From positions 2,657,501 through 2,721,500 of the forward strand of contig NC_010337.2 of NCBI RefSeq assembly GCF_000019165.1: 64,000 bases of DNA, read 5' to 3'. The DNA is from Heliomicrobium modesticaldum Ice1 (GTDB lineage: Bacteria > Bacillota > Desulfitobacteriia > Heliobacteriales > Heliobacteriaceae). The position numbers and the translations under genes are program-made. The notes under the pieces were generated by a model that made no database searches, was not told where the DNA came from, and saw only the letters and a program-made list of their open reading frames with translations. Positions 35,965 through 54,883 of the stretch are shown here, piece by piece; positions within the stretch are counted from its first letter, which is position 1; every line of letters starts with the position of its first letter.

Positions 35965-35977
35965 GTGTGTTCCTCCC

Positions 35978-36892
35978 TTACACGTCTTTGCCGTAAGATT
36001 TGGTTCCATAGTGGTAGCGCTCAATCGTCACCATACCATCTCGGATACGAGCGATTTCCGGGTGTTCGGGACCTTCCTCCTCTTCATCAGGCGGACGGGT
36101 GATGTGATTGGCAATGCGCAGTTGTGTCGGCCGGAGCCGGTAGGCCGTCACCACCGCCTCATCACTGCCCATAGCGCCGGCGTGGGCCACACCGCGGAAC
36201 ACCCCCATGACGATGATATTGCCCCCGGCCACGACCTCCGCGCCAGGGTTGACATCGCCCAAGATGACCACATGTCCGGGATAGCGCACGGTCTGACCTG
36301 AACGGAGCGTCCGCTGAATGAGCAGCGTCCGTTCGTCGCCTCCCTGGGTGAGGATGGCCGTTTGCATATCGGAAGGGCTGCCTCCGAAGCAGTCGGCAGG
36401 TTCTGTCGTCGCCTCGGCGTAATCTGGCGCGGTACCGACCGGGGAAAAGCTCGAAGCAGATTCGTCTCGGTAATCGTAGTTCCTCGCCGCGCCATCAGCC
36501 CGTTCAGTCGATTCATAGAGGTGGTTAGCGATTTGATAGATGCGTTCGCGGTTTCCTTTTAACACGACCCTTTCCTCCTCGTCATGTTGACCGACCGGAT
36601 CAGCCCAGGAATTGATTCCCCGCAAGATGAGCCCGTAAGACGGGAAGAGGGTCTGGAGACGTTCGATCTGGTCCGGGTGGAGCTGCCGTGTCCCTACATC
36701 GACAGTGACATGGGCACCCACAAGAAAAAAATCGGCTGAGGCCAGTTTCGTTTCAATCGCAGCGGCCAGTTCGGAAAAATCGCACTGGGAGTCTAGAAAG
36801 AAGGTAAGCCCGTCTTTGGAACCCTTGATCACAATGTCTGCTTTTCCCATTGCCGTCCATTCGCCCCCAGCCGATTTCCATAACTTTACCAT
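35978..36892 (-). CDS. minC: Septum site-determining protein MinC, long-linker form
   Basis: A 304-residue MinC. The N-terminal domain (ADIVIKGSKDGLTFFLD) inhibits FtsZ polymerisation. The C-terminal beta-helix (TLLIQRTLRSGQTVRYPGHV, GDVNPGAEVVAGGNIIVMG) dimerises and binds MinD. Typical MinC has about 220-260 residues. Here the joining segment, about residues 105-190, is long, acidic and low in hydrophobics (ESTERADGAARNYDYRDESA), and the C-terminus has an extra PPDEEEEGPEHPE stretch. ATG 36892 is supported by AAGGGTGG and by the promoter just upstream. Confidence 0.93.
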   Translation of the reverse strand: MVKLWKSAGGEWTAMGKADIVIKGSKDGLTFFLDSQCDFSELAAAIETKLASADFFLVGAHVTVDVGTRQLHPDQIERLQTLFPSYGLILRGINSWADPVGQHDEEERVVLKGNRERIYQIANHLYESTERADGAARNYDYRDESASSFSPVGTAPDYAEATTEPADCFGGSPSDMQTAILTQGGDERTLLIQRTLRSGQTVRYPGHVVILGDVNPGAEVVAGGNIIVMGVFRGVAHAGAMGSDEAVVTAYRLRPTQLRIANHITRPPDEEEEGPEHPEIARIRDGMVTIERYHYGTKSYGKDV

Positions 36893-36909
36893 TTTCGTCC
36901 ACCCTTGAA

Positions 36910-36938
36910 ATTCTACGTCCCGGGGGGAATTCCTTCAA
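36910..36938 (-). promoter_or_regulatory. Promoter of minCDE
   Basis: TTGAAG (-35) and TAGAAT (-10) are exactly 17 bp apart. The predicted start lies only about 11 nt before the minC ATG, so the leader is hardly longer than the ribosome-binding site. Confidence 0.7.
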
Positions 36939-36943
36939 GCAAA

Positions 36944-36971
36944 ACAAAAAAAGGAGGAGCCCAGCTCTTCC
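36944..36971 (-). terminator. Terminator after mrdA
   Basis: GGAAGAGC pairs with GCTCCTCC (one mismatch) and is followed by seven Ts. It insulates the mre/mrdA transcript from minCDE. Confidence 0.75.
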
Positions 36972-36977
36972 TTTCCC

Positions 36978-39086: not shown

Positions 39087-39586
39087 GAACCCACCTCTTC
39101 CTTCGGCAACCACCCTTTGCAGGCGGCCCGGTAAAAGGGTCCGTACAGCAAGGACGCCGCCACTGTGTTATAAAGAGCCTGGGTCAAGAGGGTCATAAAA
39201 AAGCCACCGACGGCAAAGGGCAGTCCGGCGAAACTTCCCAACAGGAAGGCGAAAGTGTGGTACGCTACTGTGCCGGCTAAGACGCAACCGATGGGCACAA
39301 GCAGGTTGTCCTTGTACAGGCGCCCTTCGATGAAGCCGCAGAGGCCGGCCGTGGCGGCCAAGGCAAGGGCGTTTAACCCGATATAGCGTCCCGTCAGCAT
39401 GTCCAGAAAGAGGCCGGCGCCGGCGCCGAAGAAGCTGCCGAAACGACCGCCCTTCAGTATGGCTGTAAAGACGACAAGAATCAATACCAAATGTGGTGTC
39501 ACGCCGCCAAGCGCCAGTTTGTCCATCAGGGTCGTCTGCAAGGTCGTGCTCGCCAGCAACAATAAGACCAGGTTCAGATGGCGCAA
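39083..39586 (-). CDS. mreD: Rod shape-determining protein MreD
   Basis: A 167-residue hydrophobic protein with five to six membrane helices (LALGGVTPHLVLILVVFTAI; SFFGAGAGLFLDMLTGRYIG), the MreD pattern. It starts with TTG directly behind the mreC stop and ends overlapping mrdA. It belongs to the MreBCD-RodA-PBP2 elongasome. Confidence 0.9.
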   Translation of the reverse strand: MRHLNLVLLLLASTTLQTTLMDKLALGGVTPHLVLILVVFTAILKGGRFGSFFGAGAGLFLDMLTGRYIGLNALALAATAGLCGFIEGRLYKDNLLVPIGCVLAGTVAYHTFAFLLGSFAGLPFAVGGFFMTLLTQALYNTVAASLLYGPFYRAACKGWLPKEEVGS

Positions 39587-40429
39587 CTACTCTCCCTCCT
39601 GGCGCAGGACCTTTTGGACGATGAAGACCTCCTCGAGACGCTGGAAGTCGACAGCGGGACGCACCGTGGCTCGTTTTGTCAAGCCGTTCGGTTCCGGTTC
39701 CACACCGGTCACATAGCCGACGCGCAAACCTTTCGGATAGAGCGACCCCAAGCCGGAAGTGACGACCAGTTGTTCAACCGGAACGGGCGCGTCGCGGCGC
39801 AGGTGAACCATCTGTAACAGGCCGGAACCGTCGCCCCTGGCCTCGACAATGCCAGGCTCCCGGGTCATCAGCAGCATGGCCGGCACTGGCGCTTCTCGGT
39901 CGATGATCAGCAGAACCTGACAGGAATGAGGCGACACAGAAGTCACATGACCGATCAATCCGTCATTGTTGATGACGACCATGTCTTTCGCCACCCCGTC
40001 GGCAGCCCCCCGGTCGAGGGTCAATGAACGAAACCACGTCGATGTCTCACGACCGATGACTCTGGCCGCGATCATCTGGTAGTTTCCCCCTTTTTCTTCT
40101 TTGAACGCCAGCATCTCTTTCATGCGGAGATTTTCTAACTGATATTGGCGAAGCAATCCGTTTTCACGGCGCAATTCACCGTTCTCCCGACGCAACGCCT
40201 CGTTCTCCTCTTTGACCTGACGGTAGTTGATCACCGCCTGGCCTATAGCCTCCCCCTGTCCGATTACATAGGTAAGACCCGCCTGGAACGGTGCCAACAA
40301 GGCATGGCTGGCACTCTCCAGAAGGGACGTGTCCCATCGATCGTTGCTCGTCATCCGGAGAAGCCCCAAGCCGATGACCGTTCCAAGACCGGCGACAAGA
40401 AGCGTCTTTCTCATTCTTGTTCGGGCCAA
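39587..40429 (-). CDS. mreC: Rod shape-determining protein MreC
   Basis: A 280-residue bitopic protein: one N-terminal membrane helix (TLLVAGLGTVIGLGLLRM), a coiled coil (VKEENEALRRENGELRRENG), then the beta-barrel domain (ARVIGRETSTWFRSLTLDRG, VINNDGLIGHVTSVSPHSC). It organises PBP2 and RodA outside the membrane. TTG 40429 is chosen because AGGGGG lies 8 nt upstream; ATG 40414 lacks an SD. The frame stays open far upstream, but that part lies in the inverted-repeat element and is not MreC-like. The gap to mreB (about 460 bp) is unusual for this operon. Confidence 0.92.
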   Translation of the reverse strand: MARTRMRKTLLVAGLGTVIGLGLLRMTSNDRWDTSLLESASHALLAPFQAGLTYVIGQGEAIGQAVINYRQVKEENEALRRENGELRRENGLLRQYQLENLRMKEMLAFKEEKGGNYQMIAARVIGRETSTWFRSLTLDRGAADGVAKDMVVINNDGLIGHVTSVSPHSCQVLLIIDREAPVPAMLLMTREPGIVEARGDGSGLLQMVHLRRDAPVPVEQLVVTSGLGSLYPKGLRVGYVTGVEPEPNGLTKRATVRPAVDFQRLEEVFIVQKVLRQEGE

Positions 40430-40518
40430 AAAGGCTTCCCCCTTAATGGAATCGGCCGCATCCGTCCACTCTTTCGCTATACCCTGATCGCCTGTGAACC
40501 TCGTTCTGAAAATAGCGA

Positions 40519-40685
40519 GGGCGCATGGGTAAAGCTCGCTAAGCGCTCCGCGGCTGCTCGCTTGACGCCAGCGGGCGCGCCTAATAGTTGGGCTTTTTTG
40601 CATGTCTGATGGCGCGCCTTGACGCTGCGACCTCTGCGCTCGCTGACGCCGCTCCGCTCAAACCGCTCGCTTCACCCATGCGCCC
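40519..40685 (-). repeat. Copy 1 of a ~170-bp inverted-repeat element (between mreB and mreC)
   Basis: The ends are the perfect 12-bp inverted repeat GGGCGCATGGGT / ACCCATGCGCCC. The centre holds GGCGCGCC on both sides of a loop that contains ACATGCAAAAAAGCCCA on the minus strand. The second copy at 43917-44087, in the opposite orientation, shares the ends, the arms and the loop. No transposase is encoded. It could be a miniature inverted-repeat element or a structured RNA; see findings. Confidence 0.8.
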
Positions 40686-40888
40686 GTGCTACGGAATCGT
40701 CTCAGACTGCCACCCAACCATTGTCGATCAAGGGGGCAAAATGATCAACGGTTTTTTGCTTTTTTCAGCAATTCCCTATTAAATCTGTTTAAATCCGTGT
40801 TTGCCTATGCCTGATGACAGTGAAATAAGTCCGTCTGCTCACGCTTGATGACGCTGCGCAGCGCCATTCGCGAATCAGACGAATCGGA

Positions 40889-40890
<2 letters not shown>
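40686..40890 (-). other. mreB 3' region with a nested hairpin
   Basis: Just past the mreB stop, AGTC...CGTCTG (near 40876-40890) pairs with CAGACGGACT (40828-40837), with an inner GCGCTGCGCAGCG stem, followed by TTATTTC. It may be a weak terminator or processing site. Nothing else was recognised up to the repeat element. Confidence 0.45.
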
Positions 40891-41920
<1,030 letters not shown>

Positions 41921-41958
41921 ATTCCTATCTCCTTACCGGATCAGACGTATCCATGTCC

Positions 41959-42648
41959 TTAGACATATCCCAGTTCTTTGAGGCTGCTGTAGCGGTTGTC
42001 TCCGATGATGACATGGTCGAGGATCTCGATCCCCAATATCCTTCCTGCTTCAACGATTCGCCGCGTAATCTCACGATCCTCCCGCGACGGTGTCGGATCT
42101 CCGCTGGGATGGTTATGTATGAGCACAACCGCAGCGGCGCTCTTGCGGATCAGCACTTTAAACAGCTCCCGCGGATGGACGATCGATGATGACAGGCTGC
42201 CCACAGAGATATCCTCAATGCTGAGAACCTGATTCTTCGTGTTCAGGGCGATGGCGCGAAAGACCTCTCGATCTAAAAACCGCATGTCTTCCATCACCAA
42301 GCGACTGGCGTCCTCAGGCGAACGGATGACGGGACGCGATTCCGGCGCCGTGGAAGCGATGCGACGCCCCAGTTCCACCGCCGCCTTCACCTGGGCCGCC
42401 TTGGCGGCGCCTAAACCTCTGAGGGCGCTCAATTCGTCGGCTGTAGCCTCAGCGAGAAAACGCAAGCCTCCCTGTCGGAGGATGCGGTGGGCCATATCGA
42501 TGGCCGTCTCTCGGGTTGTTCCGGTCCGCAGCAGAATGGCCAACAATTCGGCGTTGGTCAATGCCTGTGGGCCTGCCGACAGGAGGCGCTCACGGGGGCG
42601 CAGGTCTTCCGGCAGGTCTTTGATGGTCAAATGATCGTTGTCACTCAC
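41959..42648 (-). CDS. radC: RadC/JAB-domain DNA repair-associated protein
   Basis: About 229 residues. The N-terminal HhH-like part has LSALRGLGAAKAAQVKAAVELG. The C-terminal MPN/JAB domain carries VLIHNHPSGDPTPSREDREIT (HxHx7Sx2D metal site). Family knowledge: RadC is widely conserved, and its DNA-repair role is disputed. GTG 42648 is preferred: AGAGGGGG lies 8 nt upstream, and the product then begins VSDNDHLTIKDLPEDLRPRE as in the family. The frame extends to 42738 inside maf without SD support. Confidence 0.92.
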   Translation of the reverse strand: MSDNDHLTIKDLPEDLRPRERLLSAGPQALTNAELLAILLRTGTTRETAIDMAHRILRQGGLRFLAEATADELSALRGLGAAKAAQVKAAVELGRRIASTAPESRPVIRSPEDASRLVMEDMRFLDREVFRAIALNTKNQVLSIEDISVGSLSSSIVHPRELFKVLIRKSAAAVVLIHNHPSGDPTPSREDREITRRIVEAGRILGIEILDHVIIGDNRYSSLKELGYV

Positions 42649-42697
42649 GGCCAATGCCCCCTCTGTGACGGGGAACCGTTCTATCATTGTGCGGCGG

Positions 42698-43321
42698 CTA
42701 GGCAGGAGAAGCGGTGCTGCTGTTCCCTTCCGTTCCAAGTTGCATCAGGGAAATCCCCCATTGGCGAAGCAGCTTGTCCAACCGGACGAGCGGCAAACCG
42801 ACGACATTGAAGTAGTCCCCCTCCAGACGTTCCACCAGCAAAGCGGCCAACCCCTGGATGCCGTAAGCGCCGGCTTTGTCAAGACAGTCGCCGGTAGAAA
42901 CATAGCGGTCAATGTCCTCCTCCGTGAGGTCGCGGAAGTGGACCCGCGTCTCCTCATAGCCGCCCGTTTCATGAACGATGCGGCCCTTTTCGACATGAAA
43001 CAAGGCCAGTCCCGTGATCACCCGATGGGAACGACCGGAGAGGCGGCGGAGCATCTCCCGGGCATGATCCGGTGATTTCGGTTTGCCGAGCACATCCTCG
43101 CCGAGGACGACGATGGTGTCGGCGCCCAAGACGATCCCGTCAGACAGGCGTTCACAGACGGAAAGGGCCTTGCCGCGGGATAGCGCCAGCGCTTGCGACT
43201 CCGGCGCCAGGCCCTCGACCCCTTCTTCAGAAAAATCGCTGGGCAGGACCGAAAAAGAGATGCCCAGGTCGGACAGCAACTGGCGCCGACGAGGCGACGC
43301 TGATGCCAGCACAAGGTTCAA
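42698..43321 (-). CDS. maf: Maf-family nucleoside triphosphate pyrophosphatase
   Basis: A 207-residue Maf protein. Seen: LVLASASPRRRQLLSDLGI at the N-terminus, LSRGKALSV, GIVLGADTIVVLGEDVLGKP with the catalytic Asp, and DKAGAYGIQGLAALLVERLE near residue 150. It hydrolyses noncanonical or pyrimidine nucleotides and affects septation. Apparently TTG start after GGAGGGA. It lies 15 bp behind the DUF4321 gene. Confidence 0.95.
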   Translation of the reverse strand: MNLVLASASPRRRQLLSDLGISFSVLPSDFSEEGVEGLAPESQALALSRGKALSVCERLSDGIVLGADTIVVLGEDVLGKPKSPDHAREMLRRLSGRSHRVITGLALFHVEKGRIVHETGGYEETRVHFRDLTEEDIDRYVSTGDCLDKAGAYGIQGLAALLVERLEGDYFNVVGLPLVRLDKLLRQWGISLMQLGTEGNSSTASPA

Positions 43322-43336
43322 GAAAATCCCTCCAGG

Positions 43337-43594
43337 CTAGAATCGCCGGTAAAGGAATATGCCGGCGAGCATCCCCACAGCCCCAGCCAGGTTGAGCTTG
43401 ATGCTAAGGCCAAGGGTGAAGGTGAACGACACCAGGTTGATGTGAGCCGGTCCGAGTTCCACGTCCTTGCTCAACTTCATGACAGGGACGACAGGGATCA
43501 AGGCCTCCCCGATCAAGCTGCCGACGATGGCGCCGACGATCATAAACAGGACCAGCATACCGATTTGACCGGCGCCAACACGAATCCCCTTCAC
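43337..43594 (-). CDS. DUF4321 small membrane protein
   Basis: An 85-residue protein with two membrane segments (IGMLVLFMIVGAIVGSLIG and FTLGLSIKLNLAGAVGMLAG) and a short basic end. I recognise it as the small DUF4321-type protein found next to maf in Clostridia; the function is unknown. GTG start with AAGGGGGA upstream. A terminator-like hairpin lies only about 20 nt upstream of the start codon. Confidence 0.8.
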   Translation of the reverse strand: MKGIRVGAGQIGMLVLFMIVGAIVGSLIGEALIPVVPVMKLSKDVELGPAHINLVSFTFTLGLSIKLNLAGAVGMLAGIFLYRRF

Positions 43595-43612
43595 AGCCCG
43601 TCCCCCTTGCGC

Positions 43613-44113: not shown

Positions 44114-45205
44114 TCAAAAACCCAGAGCCTTCCGCCACAACGCCAGCGCCCCCTTCCGCTTCACATCCAGCACAGGAACCTTCAATCTCCGCCCCAGTCG
44201 CCCCTCCAGCACCCCGCCGGGCAGGTAACGGGGCTGGTAGGTCTGGCTTTCAGCATCGTATGCCGGGTAGAAAGGGTTCACTGTAACAGCCAGAAGAGGG
44301 ATAGACCGCCGCAGAAGCGGCATCAACCCCGATTCACGCAATTGCCGCAGCATCAGGTCGGTTTCACCGGGGTTGCCGCTGAGCAACAAGGTAACGGGAT
44401 CGCAAAAAAAGATACGCCACCCCTTCAATCGGGGGCCTGCCGTCGAGAGCAAGGAACGCATGGCGGTGGTGGTCACCAAGCGCGGCAGGGCGAGCAGACC
44501 TTCGTCTGTCTCATCGACTGTTCCACTAGCGAGAAACGCAAGGATCTGCCGCCCGAGATCGCGACCATCGTCGACCGTCAGCATTTGAGCATCAGCCAAG
44601 GGCATCTTGCGCCACTGCCCCTTATACCGGCAAGCGACGCCGCCGCCATCGGCGAAGACGGCTGTGCTGCCTTGGGGCAGCCGGAAGATCTGAGCGATGC
44701 TCTCCGTTTCGTCCGTCAGCCGACCGGGGTCCGCATGACGGGCGGCGCCTGTAGCCAGAATTACACCGTCTGTTTCGACCATAGGCGCGATCCGGTTGAG
44801 GGCACCGTCAACCATGAGCAGGTCTGGGCGATAGCAGGCGAGACGGCCTTTCACCTGCCCCACCTCGGCGGCCTTGTTCGGTCCGGCGACGACGACAAGT
44901 CCAGGAGATAGGACCTCGCCGATGATGATAGCGCCGAGAGCGCTGGGGATGTTCGTGTCTTCCAAGATGCGGATATGGGCAGTCGACGGCGGCAGACATT
45001 TGCGGGCCGTGGCGACAAGGGTTCCCGGTTCCAGGGCCAATCTCGGCTTCGGCAGGCCGGTGATGTTATCCAATTCCTCGCCGTCATAGCCGATGGAGGT
45101 GACGGCGACGCGCCGCCGCCGCCGGTAAGCCTCCCTGAGCAGCGCCGAGGCAGTCGTCGTCTTGCCGGTGTTCTTTGCCGTTCCGGCGATGCCGACCGTC
45201 TTCAT
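44114..45205 (-). CDS. P-loop NTPase of the cobalamin-mutase-like operon, function unknown
   Basis: A 363-residue protein beginning MKTVGIAGTAKNTGKTTTAS, a Walker A motif (GTAKNTGKTT). A Walker B-like LLMVDGALNRIAP lies near residue 130, and a GPNKAAEVGQVKGRL segment between. The fold resembles dethiobiotin-synthetase/CobQ-type P-loop proteins, but I cannot assign a family. Its ATG overlaps the stop of the B12-domain protein (ATGA), so the two are translated together. Inference: it could be a reactivating or cofactor-loading ATPase for that protein, as dedicated ATPases serve other adenosylcobalamin aminomutases. It is the last gene of the operon. Confidence 0.7.
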   Translation of the reverse strand: MKTVGIAGTAKNTGKTTTASALLREAYRRRRRVAVTSIGYDGEELDNITGLPKPRLALEPGTLVATARKCLPPSTAHIRILEDTNIPSALGAIIIGEVLSPGLVVVAGPNKAAEVGQVKGRLACYRPDLLMVDGALNRIAPMVETDGVILATGAARHADPGRLTDETESIAQIFRLPQGSTAVFADGGGVACRYKGQWRKMPLADAQMLTVDDGRDLGRQILAFLASGTVDETDEGLLALPRLVTTTAMRSLLSTAGPRLKGWRIFFCDPVTLLLSGNPGETDLMLRQLRESGLMPLLRRSIPLLAVTVNPFYPAYDAESQTYQPRYLPGGVLEGRLGRRLKVPVLDVKRKGALALWRKALGF

Positions 45206-47043
45206 TCTTCGGTGACGGTTCCCCGGCCAGCCCGACCCGGATAAGCCCCTTCTTCTTTGCTGCCCAGCAGACCTGCGTACAAAGCCTCCGGGAATGAGGG
45301 CGCTGCAGCCACTGCTCTTAACACCGCCTCGATCTTATCGACGATCTCCGTCGCCCACTGACTAGCTTTTTTCGTCGGCTCGACGCGGCCCTCGCCGAAG
45401 AAGCGGAACCCCTCGGCGACGGCTCGCAAGGTGTCGACGCGGGAAGCGGCGACGATGGGACCGCCGGAATAGGCCTCGTCGGAGGAGGCTATGGACACGG
45501 CGTCCACGCGTAACGAGGCTGCCAGGGCGGCGTGCAGGGAGGTGGTCATCGAGGACTGCACACGGTCCTCCGTCTGGGTCAAAAAGCCGATAGGCGCCCC
45601 CGGCCAGATGGGGGCGTCGATGATCGCCCGCAAAGCCTCGATCTTGGCGGCGTTGAAATCGATGTAGTTGTCGCGCATCTGGCCGCTGATCATCACCTCA
45701 GGGCTGAAGGCGAAGAGCGGCTGCAACAGGGGCCGGCCGCCCAAACGGCGGGCCAAGGCAGCCACAATCAGCATGCCGGCGAAAGCCTTGTGAGCGGGAA
45801 CACCAGCCAATTCCTCATTGGTGACAACATCGAAAGGCAGGTTGTACTTGACGGCCATGCGAATGGCCTCCACCCCATCGACCGTCAGGCGGGCTGGATC
45901 GGTGCCGGCGGCCAGGGCGCCGTAAGCGATGTTGATCTTGGTCAGGTCGGCGCCGAGCTTGCCGGCTAAGACGACTGTCTCTGGCGTGTTCAGCCCCCGG
46001 TGGGCGCGCACCTGCCAGAGGGTCGACGTCTCCAAAGCCGCCTTGATCCGGGAAAGGTTTTCGGGGGTGATAACGGAGCCGTCTTCCTGGTGGGTCAAAA
46101 AGTCGCCGATGAACCCCTCCGTGCGGGCGCCCCAGGAAGGGTCAAAGTGGACGACGCCGTCAGCCCCCCAGGCTTCGCAGACCTTGATATGGGCGATATC
46201 CATAAAAGGACAGCCAGTGCCGTACTGAATGAAGACTTTGGGCTGGCCCTCCCGGTGCTGCAAAAGGCGGACGGTCATGCTTTTTTCGACTGATGTCAGG
46301 TAGTCTTCCAGGCGGGCGATCTCTTCCTTGCTCTGGCGGCGCGTTTTCGGATGCACCTCGCCTTTGCGGTAAAAAGCTTCAGCTACAGGATCGCAGAGCG
46401 CACCATAGGCGTCATTGAAATTGCTGTCGCTCTTGCCCTGCCGCCAGGCCTCCACATCCCAGGCCTCATCGCGCAGCCGCGCCCGTTTGATCCCCGGGGA
46501 GGTTTTTCCCTCAGCCCAGGCCAAAATACCGTCAACGATCCCTTCCAGCAGTCTGGCGATGGCCGGGTGTCGGTATTCGTAGCTGTAGCGGGCGGCGAGA
46601 TCTACTTTTTCTTTGCGGCTTATCTCTGCATCCGGCTTGTAGGTGCGGCCCTCAATGAAAGCCACCACCTCGTCGACCGATGTGCCGGGGCCGAAACCGG
46701 CGTCAAAGCCGAGTTCTGCCGCCAGTTCCGGTCGAATGGCCATACCGCCGACGACCAAGGTCGTCTTGTCGCGCAATCCCGCTGCGTCAGTCAAATCGAC
46801 GAAGCGAGCCAAAAGTTCGGCTACGCCATAGCCGAGGGTACGACTGACGAGCACCTGATCGGGGCTCTCCCGGCTGATGATGCTGACGATCTCCTCGGGC
46901 GGCAGATCAGGCGGCAAGAGCATCGTCTGATGGCCGGCCTCATCGAGACCGCGGCGGATCATTTTCAGGCCAATGTCATGAACGGGGTCAAGGGGAACGA
47001 GAAGCACTTTTTTCCGCTCCAGGCAGTTCGCCATCTCCTTCAC
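45202..47043 (-). CDS. Cobalamin-binding-domain protein fused to a mutase-like barrel (aminomutase-like)
   Basis: A 613-residue protein. The N-terminal ~130 residues are a B12-binding Rossmann domain: LLVPLDPVHDIGLKMIRRGL contains DxHxxG (His is the lower cobalt ligand), and TTLVVGGMAIRP corresponds to the GG segment. The rest looks like a TIM barrel: IQYGTGCPFMDIAHIKVCEA, RAHRGLNTPETVVLAGKLGA, PLFAFSPEVMISGQMRDNY, EAYSGGPIVAASRVD. Family knowledge: base-off B12 domains of this kind serve glutamate mutase, methylmalonyl-CoA mutase and lysine/ornithine aminomutases. The domain order (B12 first) and barrel sequence match none of these clearly. GTG start overlaps the upstream small gene as GTGA. 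Confidence 0.75.
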   Translation of the reverse strand: MKEMANCLERKKVLLVPLDPVHDIGLKMIRRGLDEAGHQTMLLPPDLPPEEIVSIISRESPDQVLVSRTLGYGVAELLARFVDLTDAAGLRDKTTLVVGGMAIRPELAAELGFDAGFGPGTSVDEVVAFIEGRTYKPDAEISRKEKVDLAARYSYEYRHPAIARLLEGIVDGILAWAEGKTSPGIKRARLRDEAWDVEAWRQGKSDSNFNDAYGALCDPVAEAFYRKGEVHPKTRRQSKEEIARLEDYLTSVEKSMTVRLLQHREGQPKVFIQYGTGCPFMDIAHIKVCEAWGADGVVHFDPSWGARTEGFIGDFLTHQEDGSVITPENLSRIKAALETSTLWQVRAHRGLNTPETVVLAGKLGADLTKINIAYGALAAGTDPARLTVDGVEAIRMAVKYNLPFDVVTNEELAGVPAHKAFAGMLIVAALARRLGGRPLLQPLFAFSPEVMISGQMRDNYIDFNAAKIEALRAIIDAPIWPGAPIGFLTQTEDRVQSSMTTSLHAALAASLRVDAVSIASSDEAYSGGPIVAASRVDTLRAVAEGFRFFGEGRVEPTKKASQWATEIVDKIEAVLRAVAAAPSFPEALYAGLLGSKEEGAYPGRAGRGTVTEE

Positions 47044-47288
47044 CCTTTCCCTTCCCGGTCGGTATTGCGGACCCAGGCGTAATCCTGGCCTGGACGGTAG
47101 ATGTAGGCCCGCGCTCGGACGCGCGCCCCCGGCCCGGCGAACTGAATGAACACCAGATCGACATCTTGAAAACCAAGTGCCTTCATCAAGCGGATAGTCA
47201 TCTCCTTCCCCTCGTCCTCACTTGAACAGATGAGGAAGGTCTCCAGGTCGAGGGCATCAAGCACCTGGGAGAGAACCCCTTGCGCCAA
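47040..47288 (-). CDS. Small acidic/basic protein, first gene of the B12 operon, unknown
   Basis: An 82-residue protein (LETFLICSSEDEGKEMTIRL; DVDLVFIQFAGPGARVRARA) with alternating beta-like segments. I do not recognise a family. TTG start 7 nt after AGGAGG. Its stop overlaps the start of the B12-domain gene, so it is probably a partner subunit. Confidence 0.65.
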   Translation of the reverse strand: MAQGVLSQVLDALDLETFLICSSEDEGKEMTIRLMKALGFQDVDLVFIQFAGPGARVRARAYIYRPGQDYAWVRNTDREGKG

Positions 47289-47469: not shown

Positions 47470-49303
47470 GAGTCTTTTTATCGGTCTCACCGGCCCTTTT
47501 TGAGGATTTTCCTCAAAAAGGGCAGATCTCCCCCTTGCACCTTATGCGGCTTTTTTGAAAGCAACACCGCGTAAGGCACTCACCTCCAACACCATGGTTG
47601 CATTCTTATCATTTCGTAGACGGTTGAGTTTTTGAAAGTTCGCCGCTAACGCGCTGAGCCGGGCGGCATAAGCCAGATTTCGTTTTCCGATACGGCGAAC
47701 CCGGCGCAGTCCGTAACGGTTGACCAGTTCATTTTGCTTGGCTTCGATGCGGCTGCGAAGACGCATCTGTTCCTTATAGATTTTCGTTTGGGAGTGCTTT
47801 GCCGCCTCGAGCATGACACCATAGGCGTTGTGAATAAAAATCGTGCGCCGATGTTTCTTTTCTTTAAAACAGGTCGTGTAACGAGGGCAGTGCTTGCAAT
47901 CATGGTCCTTGGCGCGAAGCACGAAGTTCTTCCCATCTGCCACTTCCGAATAGGTGGTGATGACTTTTCCTCTCGGGCAGATCAGTTGTGTTTGGTCTTC
48001 GGAAACTTGAAATCCCTCGCCCGCGAGGATATCACATTTTGTCTTTGGTGAAAGTGGCGCCACTACGTCAATGCCTTTTTCCTTGAGGGTGACACGGTCA
48101 TCGCCCGCACCATAGTGGGTATCTCCAATGATCGTCGGGTTTTCTACACAATCGGTGGGAAGCTGATCCGCTAACGGCACCAGACTGGAGCCGTCATAGT
48201 CGTTGGCTTTCATGGCCTCGGCGGCGGCGATAAATCCGGAATTTCCGACTTCGACGATGGCCATCTTATACCCGCGCCATTTCGTCTTGCCCTTACAACC
48301 GAAACGGGCTTCGCTGTCTACAGCCGAAACTATCATATCTTTGACAGAACCGCCGGGGGCTATCTCAAGAGTTCCATCATCTTTCCGAATGATTCGTTCA
48401 CGGAGGATACGGCAAAGCAAAAGGGCGTAATGAATGACATCGGGCTTCTTCTTCCACGAAGCCTCCGATGACTCCACGTAGGCCAGCAGTTCGTCAGCCT
48501 CGCTGACCACTTCAACAAGCCGTTCCATTTTGGCCTTATCGTCCAGGTTATGCTCTTTCACTTCCGTCACTGTTTCCAGGTAACGTACCGCCCGAGGGGC
48601 ATGGGGGATTGCATGCCATGGAACACTGTATTGCTTCGCCAAAAGACGCACCAACAGGCGCATGGCTTGGCGGATCAGTTCGATGGTCGTGGGGGCACTG
48701 ATGGGAGCTATGACATGGGTCGTGTCCGTTATCCAAGGTTCTTTCCCTGTCAAAACGCCCAGGTAGTACATCAACCGGATAAAGCGATCGAGATAGACCT
48801 TATCAAGTTCCTTTTGGATGAGCCGTTGCCGGTGGACGCCAAAATTGGCGTGATCAATGCCCGGTTCATCGAGGGCCATTCCTAACGCAAACTTGACCTC
48901 GATGTTCACACGTGTCTGTGCTTCCATCCCCCGGTCTGTTTCGCCCAGCATTTCCTGTAACATGCAGGCCATCGTCATCTGCCGGGCCGCATGACTGGGA
49001 CGTCCGTTGTCAAGGCAATAGAGACCTGTAAAATCCTCCGGTTGTATTAATAGGGGCGCCAATTCACGAAACAGGCGAAAGACGGAATCGGCAGGCACAA
49101 GTTGGTCCCAGAGGGCTGCAAAGTCGTAAAAGCTAACTTGGGGGTCCACATCGAATCGAAACAAGGTACATCGCCTCGCTATAAACAGTCTTTGTACCTA
49201 TATCCTTCGACGCGAAGAGTCGAATTCCCTTTAAATTCCACCAATTTCCATATAAAAACGTCTTGCTTTTTGCCCTCTCTTGAGGGGGTTTTTAGACAGA
49301 CTC
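47470..49303 (-). mobile_element. IS1182-family insertion sequence
   Basis: The intact transposase gene is flanked by short, imperfect inverted ends beginning GAGTCT (left GAGTCTTTTTA, right GAGTCTGTCTA). No clear target duplication was found, so the limits are approximate. A perfect 13-bp palindrome at 47493-47523 (GCCCTTTTTGAGG...) lies inside the left end and may terminate the transposase transcript. Confidence 0.65.
47542..49164 (-). CDS. IS1182-family DDE transposase
   Basis: A 540-residue transposase. The N-terminal DUF772 part carries RPSHAARQMTMACMLQ. The central catalytic region has IVSAVDSEARFGCKGKTKWRG (first Asp), then TIIGDTHYGAGDDRV (second Asp), and the zinc-type KDHDCKHCPRYTTCF. 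The C-terminal RIEAKQNELVNRYGLRRVRR contains the Glu. The gene is full length with no frameshift, so the element may still be mobile. It sits between the B12 operon promoter region and the terminator of the PLP/FAD operon and does not visibly break a gene. Confidence 0.92.
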   Translation of the reverse strand: MFRFDVDPQVSFYDFAALWDQLVPADSVFRLFRELAPLLIQPEDFTGLYCLDNGRPSHAARQMTMACMLQEMLGETDRGMEAQTRVNIEVKFALGMALDEPGIDHANFGVHRQRLIQKELDKVYLDRFIRLMYYLGVLTGKEPWITDTTHVIAPISAPTTIELIRQAMRLLVRLLAKQYSVPWHAIPHAPRAVRYLETVTEVKEHNLDDKAKMERLVEVVSEADELLAYVESSEASWKKKPDVIHYALLLCRILRERIIRKDDGTLEIAPGGSVKDMIVSAVDSEARFGCKGKTKWRGYKMAIVEVGNSGFIAAAEAMKANDYDGSSLVPLADQLPTDCVENPTIIGDTHYGAGDDRVTLKEKGIDVVAPLSPKTKCDILAGEGFQVSEDQTQLICPRGKVITTYSEVADGKNFVLRAKDHDCKHCPRYTTCFKEKKHRRTIFIHNAYGVMLEAAKHSQTKIYKEQMRLRSRIEAKQNELVNRYGLRRVRRIGKRNLAYAARLSALAANFQKLNRLRNDKNATMVLEVSALRGVAFKKAA

Positions 49304-49413: not shown

Positions 49414-50790
49414 TTACATCAACAGAATGGCGACAATCGTCGTCACGGCCAGGCCCGAGATGACAGGGATGAAGTTGCGGCGTGCCAGTTCGATCGGGTT
49501 GACGCCAGCGATAGCCGCCACGGGGATCAGCCCCCAGGGGATGATGGTGCCGCCGCCGGTCCACACGCCGGCGATCTGGCCCAAGGCAGCCAACGTGGCC
49601 ACTTTCAAGTCAGGAAGGGCAGTGCCAAAGGTGGCTGCGATGGAACCGACCAAAGGCAATGGCGAGAATCCGGAACCGTCAAGGCCGACGATCATGCCTG
49701 CCGCCAGTTCAATCACGGCCACAGCCGCTTTGTTCAGCGGAACAGTGTTGGACAGGGCCAATCCCACATCCTCCAGGAAGCCGGGCGCTCCCTTGCCTAG
49801 AATCTGCTGGGACAGTTCGCCTTTGCCGAGGAAGAAGAAGCCGCCGATGATGATCACGGGGGCGAAGATCTTGATCCCGAACATGAACCCATCCCGGACA
49901 AAATCGGTGATCTTTTCCAATGATTCTACGCCGTACTTGAGCACTGATCCGAAAGCCAGCAGCAGCGCTGCCGTCCCGCCGACGAGAGCTGTGGCATCGC
50001 CGCCTTTGAGGTCATAGGTGAGCATAGCCCAGACATCGGCGGCAAAGCCGAGAGGAACAAGGAAAGCAAAGACATAGGATAGGGTTGTGATCTCCAACTT
50101 CTGGTTTTTATTCTCGTACTGTTGCCGCTCTTTATCATGGGCTGCCCGGTTGGTCGCAATGTCCCGCCGGACGAGGATAAAGGCGATGATGGACGTGACC
50201 AGGCCCATCACCACCACCAGCGGTATGGAAGCGGAGACCACGTCTCCCGATGTGAGCCCTGCCGCCTTCGCCGTGATCGTCGGGGCACCCTGAATCACAT
50301 AGTCGCTGGACAGCGCGATCCCATGACCGAAGATATTCATGGCCATGGCCGCCCCCATGGCCGGCAGCCCCGCTCGGACAGCGATGGGCAGCATGATGCC
50401 GCCGATCAGGGCTACTGCAGGGGAAGGCCAGACGAACCAGGATACGATCAGCATAGCAAAACCGAGAATCCAGAAGGCCACGTCGGCGTTGACCATCAGC
50501 TTGGCCGCCGGCCGCATGATCAGGTAGTCGGCGCCCAATTCGGTGAGCACCTTGGACATAGCCACGATCAGCGAGATGACCACGATGATCCCGAGAAACT
50601 CGATGCCGGCGACGACGAGAGCGTTAAAAACCGCTTGGATGGCGCCACCCAATCCGCCGGTGTACATCCAGCCAATGTGCAGGATGCCGAGGATGCAGGG
50701 GATCAGCGGGTCTCGGCGCAAACCCATGACCACGATGACCACCAGCACGTAGAAAAGAAAGATCCAATGGAGCGTTGTGAGCGTAACCAT
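49414..50790 (-). CDS. Polytopic permease of the uncharacterised PLP/FAD operon
   Basis: A 458-residue membrane protein with about 12 hydrophobic segments, in two halves separated by a charged loop near residue 220 (HDKERQQYENKNQKLE). The pattern (GIIVVISLIVAMSKVLTELG; GLDGSGFSPLPLVGSIAATF; WTGGGTIIPWGLIPVAAIAG) resembles the ion-transporter group that holds GntP, CitMHS and DcuC carriers. I cannot name the substrate. ATG 50790 follows AGGAGG. It is the last gene of the operon; context suggests uptake of the amino acid or amine the operon degrades. Confidence 0.75.
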   Translation of the reverse strand: MVTLTTLHWIFLFYVLVVIVVMGLRRDPLIPCILGILHIGWMYTGGLGGAIQAVFNALVVAGIEFLGIIVVISLIVAMSKVLTELGADYLIMRPAAKLMVNADVAFWILGFAMLIVSWFVWPSPAVALIGGIMLPIAVRAGLPAMGAAMAMNIFGHGIALSSDYVIQGAPTITAKAAGLTSGDVVSASIPLVVVMGLVTSIIAFILVRRDIATNRAAHDKERQQYENKNQKLEITTLSYVFAFLVPLGFAADVWAMLTYDLKGGDATALVGGTAALLLAFGSVLKYGVESLEKITDFVRDGFMFGIKIFAPVIIIGGFFFLGKGELSQQILGKGAPGFLEDVGLALSNTVPLNKAAVAVIELAAGMIVGLDGSGFSPLPLVGSIAATFGTALPDLKVATLAALGQIAGVWTGGGTIIPWGLIPVAAIAGVNPIELARRNFIPVISGLAVTTIVAILLM

Positions 50791-50803
50791 CGGCGACCAC
50801 CTC

Positions 50804-52090
50804 CTATGAGACCGGTCGTTCCATGACACCGGTCAAGCCGGCCGCTTCCACCCGCTGCCGGATGGCGTTGACATCCGTTGAATAGAGACCTTGCTCCTTC
50901 ATCCGCTGGAAATAAACGGAGCCGGAAAAGGTGTACTTTTTGGTCAGACCTTCCTCTGTCTGCATCTGCTCGTTCACATGGGCGATGGCGTCACCGACAG
51001 CAAGGGAACGGGGCAGTTCGAGGAGCGGTTTTTGCAGCGCGAAACGGACAGCGTTATGGCCGGCCAGCGCGCCCGTGACGATGGCCTCCGTGTGACCCAC
51101 GAGGAGGCCCGCCTTTTCACCGGCGCAAAAGAGATTCTCCACATCGCCTTTGACTTTGAGGGTGTTGTCACGGGGGCACATGCCCACGTAGCGAATGGAG
51201 TTGCCGATCCCGCCGGAGTAAGGGTCTTCAAAGCGGGCGTTCTCGAATCCAGGGATGTGGCGGAGCTTGTCCAAGGGATAGTAGGGCGACATGAGCTTAG
51301 CGTGGCCCGTGTCGAGGAGGATGATGTTTTCGGCGAACTCTTTGAGGGCGTACTGCTGACAGGCTTTCTGGGAAAGGGCGTCCTCCTTGCGCAAATCCTC
51401 GGGAATGGCCACGACGGCGACGCCCCTTTTGTTGAGGGTATCGACAATGTCATCACGAATGGAATCTTTGTGCAGCTTACAGGAACCGGACATGGCGCCG
51501 AAACTGCCGTCGGCCTTTTTCCCGACGACCTCCTTCACGCCCGCTTTGCCGGCAATGGAGACACGCCCGCCAAAGGTGGGGCAACGGTAGATGCACATGA
51601 CACAGCCATTGCCATATTTGCCGCAATTGCCTTGAGGGCCGGCCGTACCGCTGGCGTCGATGAAGACATCGCCGGTGATCTCGTCGGTTTCATCGATCAC
51701 GACGCCGGTGATGCGAGAGCCCTGCATGGTGATGTCGCGCACCCGGGCCAGGGTGCGAAAGTGGATGTTGGGGTATTTGCTCAGGCGCTGGCGGACGGCC
51801 GGCTCCACCTTGGCCACGTCATAGAGGCTGGCGTGCTCGTGGCCGGGGAACGCAACGTTTTTGTGTCGCGAGACCTCATCGGTGACTTGGAAGAGATCAC
51901 CGCCGCCCATAGCCAGCATTTCCTCAGTGGCGGTGAAGCGGCCGTTGTTGCGCATGATCCCGCCGACGAGGCCGGTACCCAGGAACATATCGGTCCGTTC
52001 GAGCAGGACCACTTCAGCGCCGGCCTTCGCCGCCGCAATCGCCGCAGCGCAGCCGGCCCAGCCACCTCCGACGACGACTACCTTGGCCAT
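50804..52090 (-). CDS. FAD-dependent oxidoreductase of unknown substrate
   Basis: A 428-residue flavoprotein. The N-terminus is a Rossmann FAD motif, VVVGGGWAGCAAAIAAAKAG, with Glu of LLERTD binding ribose. The C-terminal FAD segment LFCAGEKAGLLVGHTEAIVT resembles GidA/TrmFO. A Cys-rich part, GNCGKYGNGCVMCIYRCPTF near residue 155-175, could hold an Fe-S cluster or redox cysteines; I do not know it from other FAD enzymes. ATG 52090 has GGAGGTGA upstream. It lies between the PLP enzyme gene and the permease. It is a plausible amino acid or imino acid oxidoreductase; the substrate is unknown. Confidence 0.8.
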   Translation of the reverse strand: MAKVVVVGGGWAGCAAAIAAAKAGAEVVLLERTDMFLGTGLVGGIMRNNGRFTATEEMLAMGGGDLFQVTDEVSRHKNVAFPGHEHASLYDVAKVEPAVRQRLSKYPNIHFRTLARVRDITMQGSRITGVVIDETDEITGDVFIDASGTAGPQGNCGKYGNGCVMCIYRCPTFGGRVSIAGKAGVKEVVGKKADGSFGAMSGSCKLHKDSIRDDIVDTLNKRGVAVVAIPEDLRKEDALSQKACQQYALKEFAENIILLDTGHAKLMSPYYPLDKLRHIPGFENARFEDPYSGGIGNSIRYVGMCPRDNTLKVKGDVENLFCAGEKAGLLVGHTEAIVTGALAGHNAVRFALQKPLLELPRSLAVGDAIAHVNEQMQTEEGLTKKYTFSGSVYFQRMKEQGLYSTDVNAIRQRVEAAGLTGVMERPVS

Positions 52091-52165: not shown

Positions 52166-53635
52166 TCATCCGATCATACCGGCGTAGCGGGCGGTGATCT
52201 CCATGAGGCGAACGAGGGCGCGGACGGCGAAGCGCATGTTCTCTTCGATGATCTGACCGTCTTCGTCTGTCGTGCCCAGGCCCGGCGAGATGTAGACGTT
52301 GGCGTCATAGGCTATGGTCGGGATGACGCCCATCTGAGCCAGGCCGCTCTGCAGGATGTTGCTGCCGGCATACATGTCTTCGATAGCGAAGATGGGCAGG
52401 CCGAGGCCGCCTTCTTTCCAAGTGCCTTCGTAGTTGACCTCGACAGCCTGGGAGTTGTAAGACTTGCTGATCTTGAGACCTTTTTTGATGTTCGGGTGGA
52501 TCTTGTCGAACTCGTCGTTGACGATCCGCTCCAGGTCGTCGACAGGCTTGGTGAGGATCTCCGGCTTGTCCCGCAGCACCCGCAAGGTTTGCACTTGGCT
52601 GAGCAGGGCCTCTTTGCCGGGGTCGAAGGTGACATAGGCCGCTTTGCCGTAGGAGGCTGTCGTTCCCCAACGGTCGCCGTGCATGCCCATGGCCCGGCGG
52701 ATAGGGGTCATCACATCCTCTCGACCGATGACCAAGCCCGAGGTGGCGGCGCCGGAGGCTTTGTCCATGGCGTAGGTGATCAGATCGGCATTCACCTTGC
52801 GGGGATCGGTGCCGATGAAGGGGATGCCCCAGGCGTTGTCGATCAGGTACGGTACGTTATACTCGCGGGCCAGTTCGCCGATGCGCTTCATCAGCAAGGG
52901 CGCGCCGTCTTCGTCCTTGACGCCGTAGCCGTAACCAGGGGTGTCATAGCCGAGAGAGGCAAAGCCGGTCAAGAAGGGGGCATGCACCTCAGCGGCGAGG
53001 GCCATCTGTTCGATGGACGCCTCAGGGTCAACCTCGGTGAGCAGCGGAACGGGATGAGCTTTGATGCCATGGACCGGATACTGGGCGCCGACGAGAGGCA
53101 CGATGACCGTGTCGAGGTTGTTCTGCCGTTTGCCGTAGAAGCCAAGCTCGCCGGCGGTGGTGCCGCGGTCAGCGTAGATGTCCTTATACTTGGGCGGGAA
53201 AGGTCGCCCGTAAGCGGCCTGGTGGTGCATGTGCTTTTCATAGGGGCAGATGTAGCGGGCGCGGTAGTTATCGCCGCGACCCAGGTTGGGCGGCGTCATC
53301 AGGGTGTCAAAGCACAGCCAGAGGGCCGCTTCGCAGGTGCTCGTCGGCACCGGTTCCCACTCGTCGCCGTAGACATCCTTGACGATCTCTCGCAGTTCGT
53401 CGACGAGCTTGGCCAGCGGAATAACCTCTTTGCCGCCCTTTTCAGTCGCCTCGGCGATATCGCGGCGCAGGGGTGCCGGGCAACCTGAGATGGCGCCGGT
53501 GAGGCCAAACTTGCCGCGTAAGTTGGGCGGAATGCCGATCTCATCGGCCGCTTTCTTGGCTTCAGCGTAGATCTGGGGGATGCTGGCCTGGAGATGGCGG
53601 TACAGTTGGTACTTATATTTCAGGGTTGTCGTCAA
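52166..53635 (-). CDS. SelA-like fold-type I PLP enzyme of unknown function
   Basis: A 489-residue PLP enzyme. Seen: VPYLIDNAWGIPFIG (Asp binding the PLP nitrogen), then ADLITYAMDKASGAATSGLV with the probable Schiff-base Lys, and GDRWGTTASYGKAAYVT. The domain plan resembles SelA/SepSecS and cystathionine lyases. It is not a SelA: no tRNA-binding N-terminal region is evident and no selB or selC is near. TTG 53635 is preferred, 8 nt after AAGGAGG; ATG 53659 lies before the SD. The gene is followed by the FAD enzyme gene and preceded by RidA, suggesting that its product is an enamine/imine. Confidence 0.78.
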   Translation of the reverse strand: MTTTLKYKYQLYRHLQASIPQIYAEAKKAADEIGIPPNLRGKFGLTGAISGCPAPLRRDIAEATEKGGKEVIPLAKLVDELREIVKDVYGDEWEPVPTSTCEAALWLCFDTLMTPPNLGRGDNYRARYICPYEKHMHHQAAYGRPFPPKYKDIYADRGTTAGELGFYGKRQNNLDTVIVPLVGAQYPVHGIKAHPVPLLTEVDPEASIEQMALAAEVHAPFLTGFASLGYDTPGYGYGVKDEDGAPLLMKRIGELAREYNVPYLIDNAWGIPFIGTDPRKVNADLITYAMDKASGAATSGLVIGREDVMTPIRRAMGMHGDRWGTTASYGKAAYVTFDPGKEALLSQVQTLRVLRDKPEILTKPVDDLERIVNDEFDKIHPNIKKGLKISKSYNSQAVEVNYEGTWKEGGLGLPIFAIEDMYAGSNILQSGLAQMGVIPTIAYDANVYISPGLGTTDEDGQIIEENMRFAVRALVRLMEITARYAGMIG

Positions 53636-53751
53636 TTCCGGATCCTCCTTGTCTCTCATGGGCTTTGGCCGGAACTCAAAGGTGTAGATGGCTCACTTCG
53701 GATCCTTTCGCTGTAAGCGGTTGGGTACATGACTCATGTAGCCTACAAGCC

Positions 53752-54207
53752 TTAAACCTGGACGATCATCTCCACTTCCACAGCGGCGTCAAGGGGCAGT
53801 TCGTTCACCCCAACAGCCGAGCGGGCGTGCTGTCCTTTGTCGCCGAAGACTTGGCCCAGCAGTTCCGAGGCGCCGTTGATGACGCCGGGCTGGCCCTGAA
53901 AACCGGGTGCGCTGTTGACGAAGCCGGTCACCTTGACGATCTTTTTGACCTGATTGAGATCGCCCACCTGCCCTTTGATCACGCCAAGGCAGTTGAGGCA
54001 ACAGACCTTGGCTGCTTCATAAGCCTTTTCCGGCGTCAGGTCCTTGCCCACCTTGCCTTTGTATTTCAACTCACCGTTGACAAAGGGGATCTGCCCTGAC
54101 GTGTAGACGAAATCACCGGCCTTGACGGACGGCACGTAGGCGGCTACCGGCTTGGGCGCTTCCGGCAGCGTGAGCCCCAGCTCCTGCAGTTTCGCTTCTA
54201 CGGACAT
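53752..54207 (-). CDS. RidA-family enamine/imine deaminase
   Basis: A 151-residue YjgF/RidA protein, somewhat longer than the usual 125-130 because of an N-terminal helix (VEAKLQELGLTLPEAPKPVA). Seen: GDFVYTSGQIPFVNGEL and the C-terminal FGDKGQHARSAVGVNELPLD with the substrate-binding Arg, then VEVEMIVQV. It releases ammonia from reactive 2-aminoacrylate-type products of PLP enzymes, which fits the adjacent PLP gene. ATG 54207 follows AGGAGGTGA. Confidence 0.92.
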   Translation of the reverse strand: MSVEAKLQELGLTLPEAPKPVAAYVPSVKAGDFVYTSGQIPFVNGELKYKGKVGKDLTPEKAYEAAKVCCLNCLGVIKGQVGDLNQVKKIVKVTGFVNSAPGFQGQPGVINGASELLGQVFGDKGQHARSAVGVNELPLDAAVEVEMIVQV

Positions 54208-54448
54208 CCCTTCACCTCCTGAATGTGCGAATGGCTTGAACCTCATCATTAGTTTCACCGAGGCAGGGAAAATCATGTGCTTTTTCAGCATTTGATCAGG
54301 CGGTGAGGTGTTTGATAGGGCGGCTGAGCTTATGGTTACTTGATCTTCTAGAGGGACTTGAGTAGTCTGGTTCATTTTTCCATGTAAAGGTCATTAGAGG
54401 GCGCTAGAGATCGTGTTTTAGAGGTTCTTTTCGGAAAAGGATTTTTTC

Positions 54449-54883
54449 TTAATCGGGGCTTTTGATCAGCAGTTGCTGGCCGATCTCAGCGCCTATGGAC
54501 ACGCCCGACTGGCGCTCCTCTGATTTGATGACGATGTTGATGTGGTTGGGCATGTGGGTCTCGTCGAAACCGGCGATATGGCCGAGAAGCTTGCCTTTTA
54601 AAAAAACCGGATCGCCGGCGACGATGACGCCACCCCCCTTGACCTCGAAAAAAGCGAGATAGGCGATGCGATTGACCTGTTTCCCCGGACCGGCATCGGT
54701 CTCGTCGGTGACGATGATCTCGTGGATCTCGTCCTCAGCTAGGGCTCGTGAGATGGGTTTGATCAGTTGCAAACCCCGATTCTCAAGCTTCCCTTCCAGG
54801 ATCGCTACCAGTTCGCCGACGACATCTTTTTTCTTGGCGTAGGGGTGAACGCGGAGCATCCCTTTGGCATATGGGTCGGACAC
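54449..54883 (-). CDS. Conserved protein of unknown function, first gene of the PLP/FAD operon
   Basis: A 144-residue protein, probably of the DUF6917 type found beside RidA and PLP genes in Clostridia (recognised with moderate confidence). It has no signal or membrane segment. Features: GMLRVHPYAKKKDVVGELVA, YLAFFEVKGGGVIVAGDPVF, HMPNHINIVI. GTG 54883 has AGGGGG upstream. About 240 bp separate it from ridA, so that part of the operon may have an extra control site, though I see none. Confidence 0.6.
   Translation of the reverse strand: MSDPYAKGMLRVHPYAKKKDVVGELVAILEGKLENRGLQLIKPISRALAEDEIHEIIVTDETDAGPGKQVNRIAYLAFFEVKGGGVIVAGDPVFLKGKLLGHIAGFDETHMPNHINIVIKSEERQSGVSIGAEIGQQLLIKSPD

Follow-up and report, generated by a model that had tools for sequence, protein, structure and literature searches.

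The window analyzed here, 64,000 nucleotides of the Heliomicrobium modesticaldum Ice1 genome (contig NC_010337.2, positions 2,657,501 to 2,721,500; the host genome is a single contig of 3.08 Mb), carries on its minus strand three overlapping genes whose products resemble the parts of a cobalamin (B12)-dependent mutase. These are a small-subunit gene of 82 amino acids (aa) with a TTG start (47040..47288, taken from the list of open reading frames, ORFs), a mutase gene of 613 aa with a GTG start (45202..47043) and a reactivase gene of 363 aa with an ATG start (44114..45205). By prediction the first product is a free-standing dimerisation domain of the aminomutase kind (OAM_dimer-like), the second has an N-terminal cobalamin domain and a C-terminal barrel, and the third is a KamB-like ATPase. 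A ribosome-binding site, AAGGAGGAAAAAAATTG, lies upstream of the 82-aa gene, and the junctions between the 82-aa and 613-aa genes and between the 613-aa and 363-aa genes read GGGTGAAGG and AGAATGAAG, with 4 bp common to each pair; the overlap of all three genes (GTGA, ATGA), described in an earlier sequence-only reading of this DNA, was borne out. A B12-mutase-like working of the trio is well supported by the sequences and predicted models below, and the trio probably constitutes an adenosylcobalamin (AdoCbl)-dependent radical mutase with its own maintenance factor, a family that would be new and would stand next to the class III aminomutases.

Domain architecture of the 613-aa protein

The cobalamin-binding domain spans residues 10–133 (46645..47016, minus strand; PF02310, E 3.4e-15; hhalign against KamE, 99.6%), and its position ahead of the barrel is as the sequence-only reading had placed it. 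The DxHxxG cobalt-ligand motif recognized in that reading also holds: it is DPVHDIG (46969..46989, minus strand), with His22 as the ligand residue, and D19, P20, V21, H22, D23 and G25 are unchanged in all 91 family members. The B12-binding domain was the only one that Pfam assigned to the protein, and PF09043 had no match in it. Among the NCBIfam profiles, KamE (NF052385) reached 54.5 bits against a cut-off of 280, and this match was confined to the B12 domain; the profile search, suggested earlier as a check, thus placed the 613-aa protein in no known mutase family. A search of the PDB with a profile of 25 homologues gave significant matches to B12 domains only, with KamE on top. KamE proper was not found in the host genome.

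The barrel occupies residues 158–613 (45205..46572, minus strand). In the AlphaFold model of the protein (pLDDT 85.5, pTM 0.82), the structure nearest to the barrel was KamD, the alpha subunit of lysine 5,6-aminomutase (8t0v_A; Z 32.2, 385 residues, root-mean-square deviation (rmsd) 3.0, 16% identity), and other matches were glutamate mutase (Z 26.2), OraE (25.5), methylmalonyl-CoA mutase (MCM; 19.4) and DHPS (~16). By hhalign, the barrel was related to KamD at 69%, to OraE at 38%, to a 2-methyleneglutarate mutase candidate at 0.5%, to GlmE at 0.3% and to MCM at 0.1%, and the NCBIfam and Pfam profiles of the KamD, OraE, GlmE and MCM families did not match it. Judged from sequence and model together, the barrel is distantly related to that of the aminomutases and falls outside any named family. 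It had been described as unlike the known mutases, which stands for the sequence, as no profile assigns the barrel, but not for the predicted fold, which is like that of the aminomutases. KamDE, OraE, GlmE, MCM and 2-methyleneglutarate mutase were each rejected as the identity of the barrel: none fits its sequence by profile, hhalign or motif.

A different family of B12 proteins has to be weighed here. The MtgC and MtbC profiles also match the B12 domain of the 613-aa protein, and the DHPS barrels appear in the fold list (Z ~16), which would suit a corrinoid methyltransferase fusion made of a B12 domain and a DHPS/MeTr-like barrel, with the ATPase as its activator. We regard this fusion as very improbable: the B12 domain is closer to KamE, the barrel matches KamD at Z 32 compared with 16 for DHPS, the ATPase is KamB rather than a RamA/AcsV-type activase, and the dimerisation domain is of the aminomutase kind.

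The protein might instead be a known carbon-skeleton mutase that is poorly annotated, namely glutamate mutase, 2-methyleneglutarate mutase or an acyl-CoA mutase, with which it has a common fold (Z 26 for GlmE, 19 for MCM) and [HD]EA and QVR motifs. This is unlikely, given the barrel hhalign values of 0.1–0.5% to GlmE, MCM and the 2-methyleneglutarate mutase candidate, and an operon whose reactivase is of the KamB type and whose dimerisation domain is that of aminomutases. 2-Methyleneglutarate mutase has about 614 aa and was considered at first because of this similar size; it was rejected as the identity, the candidate (at locus L215) having a C-terminal B12 domain and an unrelated barrel. The L215 candidate is a 619-aa ORF and probably a 2-methyleneglutarate mutase, and the adjoining 347-aa ORF resembles 3-methylitaconate isomerase by eye. 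Two further observations concern other B12 proteins. At L211, L212, L213 and L214, ORFs of about 490–570 aa make up a further family without a name: a B12-like domain with the motif G[ND]CVHV[AG]G stands at the N-terminus, and the barrel is akin to that of glutamate mutase E (hhalign 79%) but not to the barrel of the window. The host genome also has, alongside a normal MCM, an ORF of 1117 aa (G000:C1:1097404-1098957) in which an MM_CoA_mutase domain is recognized and which may be IcmF-like.

Predicted loss of the PLP site

In KamDE, pyridoxal 5'-phosphate (PLP, vitamin B6) is contacted by Lys144 of the beta subunit and by Arg184, Ser189, Ser238, Tyr263, Arg268 and Asn299 of the alpha subunit (PMC3958899). 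The PLP lysine lies 11 residues after the motif histidine in the collected KamE and OraE sequences; this position is Leu33 in the 613-aa protein and Leu in 89 of the 91 members of the new family. The KamD loop that carries Arg184 and Ser189 (RTTGQSLLD) is shorter by ~9 residues, Ser238 aligns with the invariant Arg349, Arg268 aligns with Ala/Gly, and Asn299 is without a counterpart, leaving Tyr263, as the invariant Tyr374, the sole alpha-subunit PLP contact that is kept. Glu341 of KamD, which contacts the adenosyl group, aligns with Cys/Ala445. As far as these alignments tell, the PLP site of KamDE and OraE, with its phosphate loop and the serine at the pyridine nitrogen, is lost in the new family and an aminomutase identity fails on the PLP features tested; therefore, the substrate rearranged is probably different from that of lysine 5,6-aminomutase.

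We think it unlikely that the protein is a genuine aminomutase that has kept PLP as its cofactor, bound through residues other than those of KamDE and OraE. The nearest fold is that of KamD, the dimerisation domain is of the KamE type, the reactivase is of the KamB type, and the tyrosine that stacks on PLP aligns with Tyr374, all of which favor such an enzyme; the replacement of the Schiff-base lysine by Leu, the shortened loop and the changes at Ser238, Arg268 and Asn299 argue against it.

Two invariant sites may serve a PLP-free reaction. First, R346-A-H-R349 (45997..46008, minus strand), in which R346, H348 and R349 are invariant in 91/91 sequences, is a candidate site for the substrate carboxylate; R349 stands where KamD has the PLP-contacting Ser238, and R346 within QVRAHRG resembles, by motif only, Arg149 of GlmE within QVRHGTPD. 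Second, D522-E523 (45475..45480, minus strand), also invariant in 91/91, is the motif counterpart of GlmE Glu330 and MCM Glu370, which have been reported as the residues holding the adenosyl group (PMC4413051). The invariant D522-E523-A resembles both the PHEA of glutamate mutase, in which the Glu is residue 330 of the L205 sequence, and the DEA of MCM.

A putative dimerisation subunit and a KamB-like reactivase

The AlphaFold model of the 82-aa protein (pLDDT 85.5) was compared with 350,542 structure chains and the best rows were realigned. All six top matches were the beta subunit of lysine 5,6-aminomutase (KamE) or OraE; with 1xrs_B (Z 7.4, rmsd 1.3 over 51 residues), the matched KamE residues 33–84 are the dimerisation domain, with a strand-helix-strand-strand order. 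Because Z is below 8, this fold match alone is only suggestive. By hhalign the protein matched KamE at 85%, full-length OraE at 35%, and other families and the OraE barrel alone at ≤5%; 14 residues are invariant in its family, and no Pfam family matched it. Both the model and the sequence comparison, with the gene position in support, predict that the 82-aa product is a separate subunit consisting of the aminomutase dimerisation domain. It is therefore not the anonymous partner that it had seemed from the letters alone, but a predicted KamE/OraE-type dimerisation domain with its own gene.

The 363-aa protein has no accepted Pfam family but matches the NCBIfam model reactivase_KamB (NF052386) with 190.5 bits (E 3.7e-56, profile positions 1–301 of 326), below the cut-off of 210; its orthologues in genomes G112, G274 and G080 score 220–250 bits and exceed that cut-off. 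An assignment to a known reactivase family, which was to count against a new system, was thus half obtained. The hhalign comparison with KamB, for which the KamB set was two sequences, indicated full-length homology (100%, E 1e-52), and the P-loop GTAKNTGKT (45158..45184, minus strand) is invariant in a 16-member alignment. A tree of 67 proteins, for which a larger KamB set was used, separated the reactivases of this system from the KamB proteins of KamDE operons as two groups with 100/100 support. The suggestion that the P-loop protein is a dedicated reactivase has been upheld to this extent: by sequence it is of the KamB type, in a clade of its own, and in most loci its gene adjoins that of the mutase. 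The mutase genomes that lack an adjoining reactivase gene have a homologue elsewhere in 12 of 12 cases, 11 of which score 371–424 bits like the clade of this system; in G310 the non-adjoining homologue is a KamB-clade copy.

Distribution and conservation of the trio

Of 299 genomes drawn from the phylum, 28 encode full-length relatives of the 613-aa protein, with 55–81% identity apart from one copy in two pieces; over their full length, family members retain 54–81% identity. The mutase is present in 7 of 9 genomes of the window's family. Among named genomes, homologues occur in Heliobacterium, Desulfosporosinus, Desulfotomaculum, Sporomusa, Tepidanaerobacter, Halobacteroidaceae, Symbiobacterium, Atribacteria, Thermotogota and a Treponema. 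In a set of 111 loci, in which some genomes are counted twice, the mutase gene is immediately preceded by the 82-aa gene in 108 (Bacillota, Thermotogota, Atribacteria and a Treponema) and immediately followed by a reactivase gene in 80; since this gene order recurs so widely, the arrangement of the trio is not due to chance. A fused 82-aa/613-aa gene, sought as proof of a complex, did not occur among the loci scanned, and a search for plasmid carriage gave no match. No published description of the system was found in literature searches restricted to open-licence papers.

Close relatives are Heliobacterium chlorum and H. mobile, with 613-aa homologues that are 82% identical. In H. chlorum (L125), the gene order is rex, DUF6917, RidA, PLP enzyme, FAD enzyme (FAD, flavin adenine dinucleotide), transporter, 82-aa gene, mutase, KamB-like gene and maf; the operon of H. 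mobile (L127) is uninterrupted and has the same order, its 82-aa gene being detected only by a six-frame profile scan. In the host genome, a DDE transposase gene that is not part of the system (47542..49164, minus strand; PF13751, PF01609, PF05598) is inserted between the transporter gene and the 82-aa gene, where it is absent in both relatives. The transposase splits the trio from the transporter side of the operon, and expression of the trio may differ in this genome.

Operon neighbors and substrate clues

Beyond the transposase, on the minus strand, lie genes for the operon transporter (49414..50829; ~460 aa, true start probably internal, no Pfam family), an FAD-dependent oxidoreductase (50804..52090; PF01134, PF12831), a PLP enzyme of fold type I (52166..53659; weak Aminotran_5/DgaE-like matches), a RidA-family imine/enamine hydrolase (53752..54375; PF14588, PF01042, true start probably internal) and a DUF6917 protein (54449..54883; PF21891, E 1e-47). 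Over 75 loci, the neighbors of the mutase gene were the PLP enzyme (62), the KamB-like gene (58), the 82-aa gene (57, an undercount from ORF calling), the FAD enzyme (50), DUF6917 (47), GntR (46), RidA (34) and the transporter (25), which makes the PLP enzyme the commonest neighbor apart from the trio. This enzyme is weakly similar to DgaE-type ammonia lyases and gamma-lyases. The recurrence of DUF6917 (PF21891) beside the mutase in 47 of the 75 loci offers a first functional context for that family.

In two Thermotogota loci (L196, L204) and one of Atribacteria (L182), the place of the PLP enzyme and RidA is taken by DapF and a Symbiobacterium-type diaminopimelate dehydrogenase. They are directly upstream of the trio, in L204 with a transporter-like gene between the two; the dehydrogenase matches TIGR01921 with E 1e-85 to 1e-88 in L182 and L196. 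A DHDPS-family gene lies downstream of the trio at L160. The neighbors thus point to amino acids but differ by lineage, comprising diaminopimelate dehydrogenase with DapF, the DHDPS-family gene and homoserine genes. In the fermentation of glutamate, ornithine and lysine, an amino acid is rearranged and then deaminated. By analogy with this logic, and from the neighbors, we infer an amino-acid substrate, possibly diaminopimelate-like.

The operon is also repeatedly found beside mreBCD/minCD/rodA-type cell-wall genes or, elsewhere, dacF-scpAB (L200, L163, L142, L191, L185 and the window at 35161-43600). Neighbors in L200 and L191 that had been suspected from gene sizes to be Mo-hydroxylases were rejected as such, as the genes read as mreCD/PBP2/rodA-type.

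Proposed working of the system

In the working that we propose, the B12 domain would bind AdoCbl in the base-off form with His22 as the lower ligand, and homolysis of the Co–C bond would yield a 5'-deoxyadenosyl radical within the barrel, held by Glu523. The substrate would be bound by conserved charged residues (R346, H348 and R349, and probably R307, K369, E410/E411 and Y374) and not as a PLP imine; with such binding, a glutamate-mutase-like carbon-skeleton migration would be likelier than a PLP-assisted 1,2-amino shift. The small subunit would provide the dimerisation domain that KamE and OraE carry fused to the B12 domain, and the KamB-like ATPase, on the strength of its homology, would swap out damaged cobalamin. 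The rearranged product, probably an amino acid, would then be deaminated; in Bacillota this would fall to the PLP enzyme together with RidA, and in Thermotogota and some Atribacteria to the diaminopimelate-dehydrogenase-like enzyme.

The earlier proposal of a new AdoCbl rearrangement system accordingly stands in part: the mutase parts and the reactivase fit it, but the use of AdoCbl, the mutase chemistry, the amino-acid substrate, the reaction and the direction of the pathway are what we infer. As a tentative possibility, the reaction would itself be new: an AdoCbl mutase that works without PLP would rearrange the carbon skeleton of a diamino acid or of an amino acid of the aspartate family (for example diaminopimelate or a derivative), as the opening step of an undescribed anaerobic catabolic pathway. 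The permuted aminomutase parts of such an enzyme would link carbon-skeleton mutases and aminomutases.

Several points weigh against an AdoCbl-dependent, PLP-free mutase with its own reactivase. The sequence signal between the barrel and KamD is modest, and the fold evidence is a predicted model. The altered active site could still bind PLP in another way, and the equivalences with glutamate mutase (R346 with Arg149, E523 with Glu330) were drawn by motif, without structural superposition. The reactivase gene does not adjoin the mutase gene in 31 of the 111 loci, and of KamC, which completes the kam reactivase pair, only one weak candidate, at L145, turned up near the mutase. Finally, the two operon variants may differ in substrate.

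To our knowledge, few AdoCbl-dependent rearrangement reactions are known. A family conserved in several phyla, with its own reactivase clade and with no Pfam or NCBIfam family model, points to an unassigned step of anaerobic metabolism. Because its aminomutase parts occur together with a catalytic motif like that of glutamate mutase, it is also relevant to the relationship between PLP aminomutases and PLP-free mutases. The whole operon, which includes a transporter, a deaminating enzyme and RidA, is a small gene set in which to find the substrate.

Comparison with known systems

Lysine 5,6-aminomutase KamDE (1xrs, 8t0v, 9q1a) offers the nearest barrel fold, the nearest B12 domain, the dimerisation domain and a reactivase of the KamB family. 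It differs in that its domains are split otherwise over the genes (barrel / dimer-B12 in KamD / KamE, dimer / B12-barrel in the new system), in having the PLP lysine and PLP-phosphate loop that the new family lacks, and in a barrel that is only ~16% identical; unlike KamDE, the new operon has no lysine-fermentation genes. D-ornithine 4,5-aminomutase OraE/OraS (3kow-3kp1) has the same three domain types (barrel, dimerisation and B12), but OraE is a single barrel-dimer-B12 chain with PLP on Lys629, a position taken by Leu in the new protein, and the barrels reach 38% by hhalign. Glutamate mutase GlmES shares the barrel superfamily (Z 26), the freedom from PLP, the PHEA/DEA glutamate and R100/R149-like motifs, whereas its barrel has no significant sequence relation to the new one, its B12 subunit is separate and it is without an aminomutase dimerisation domain. 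In IcmF, the fused isobutyryl-CoA mutase, an N-terminal B12 domain precedes the barrel as in the new protein, but IcmF has a G-protein chaperone domain and an acyl-CoA barrel, and its fold match is far weaker than that of KamD. Lastly, the KamB reactivase (NF052386) belongs to the same P-loop family with full-length homology, while the new reactivases form a separate clade (100/100), with the window copy under the curated cut-off and no conserved KamC partner.

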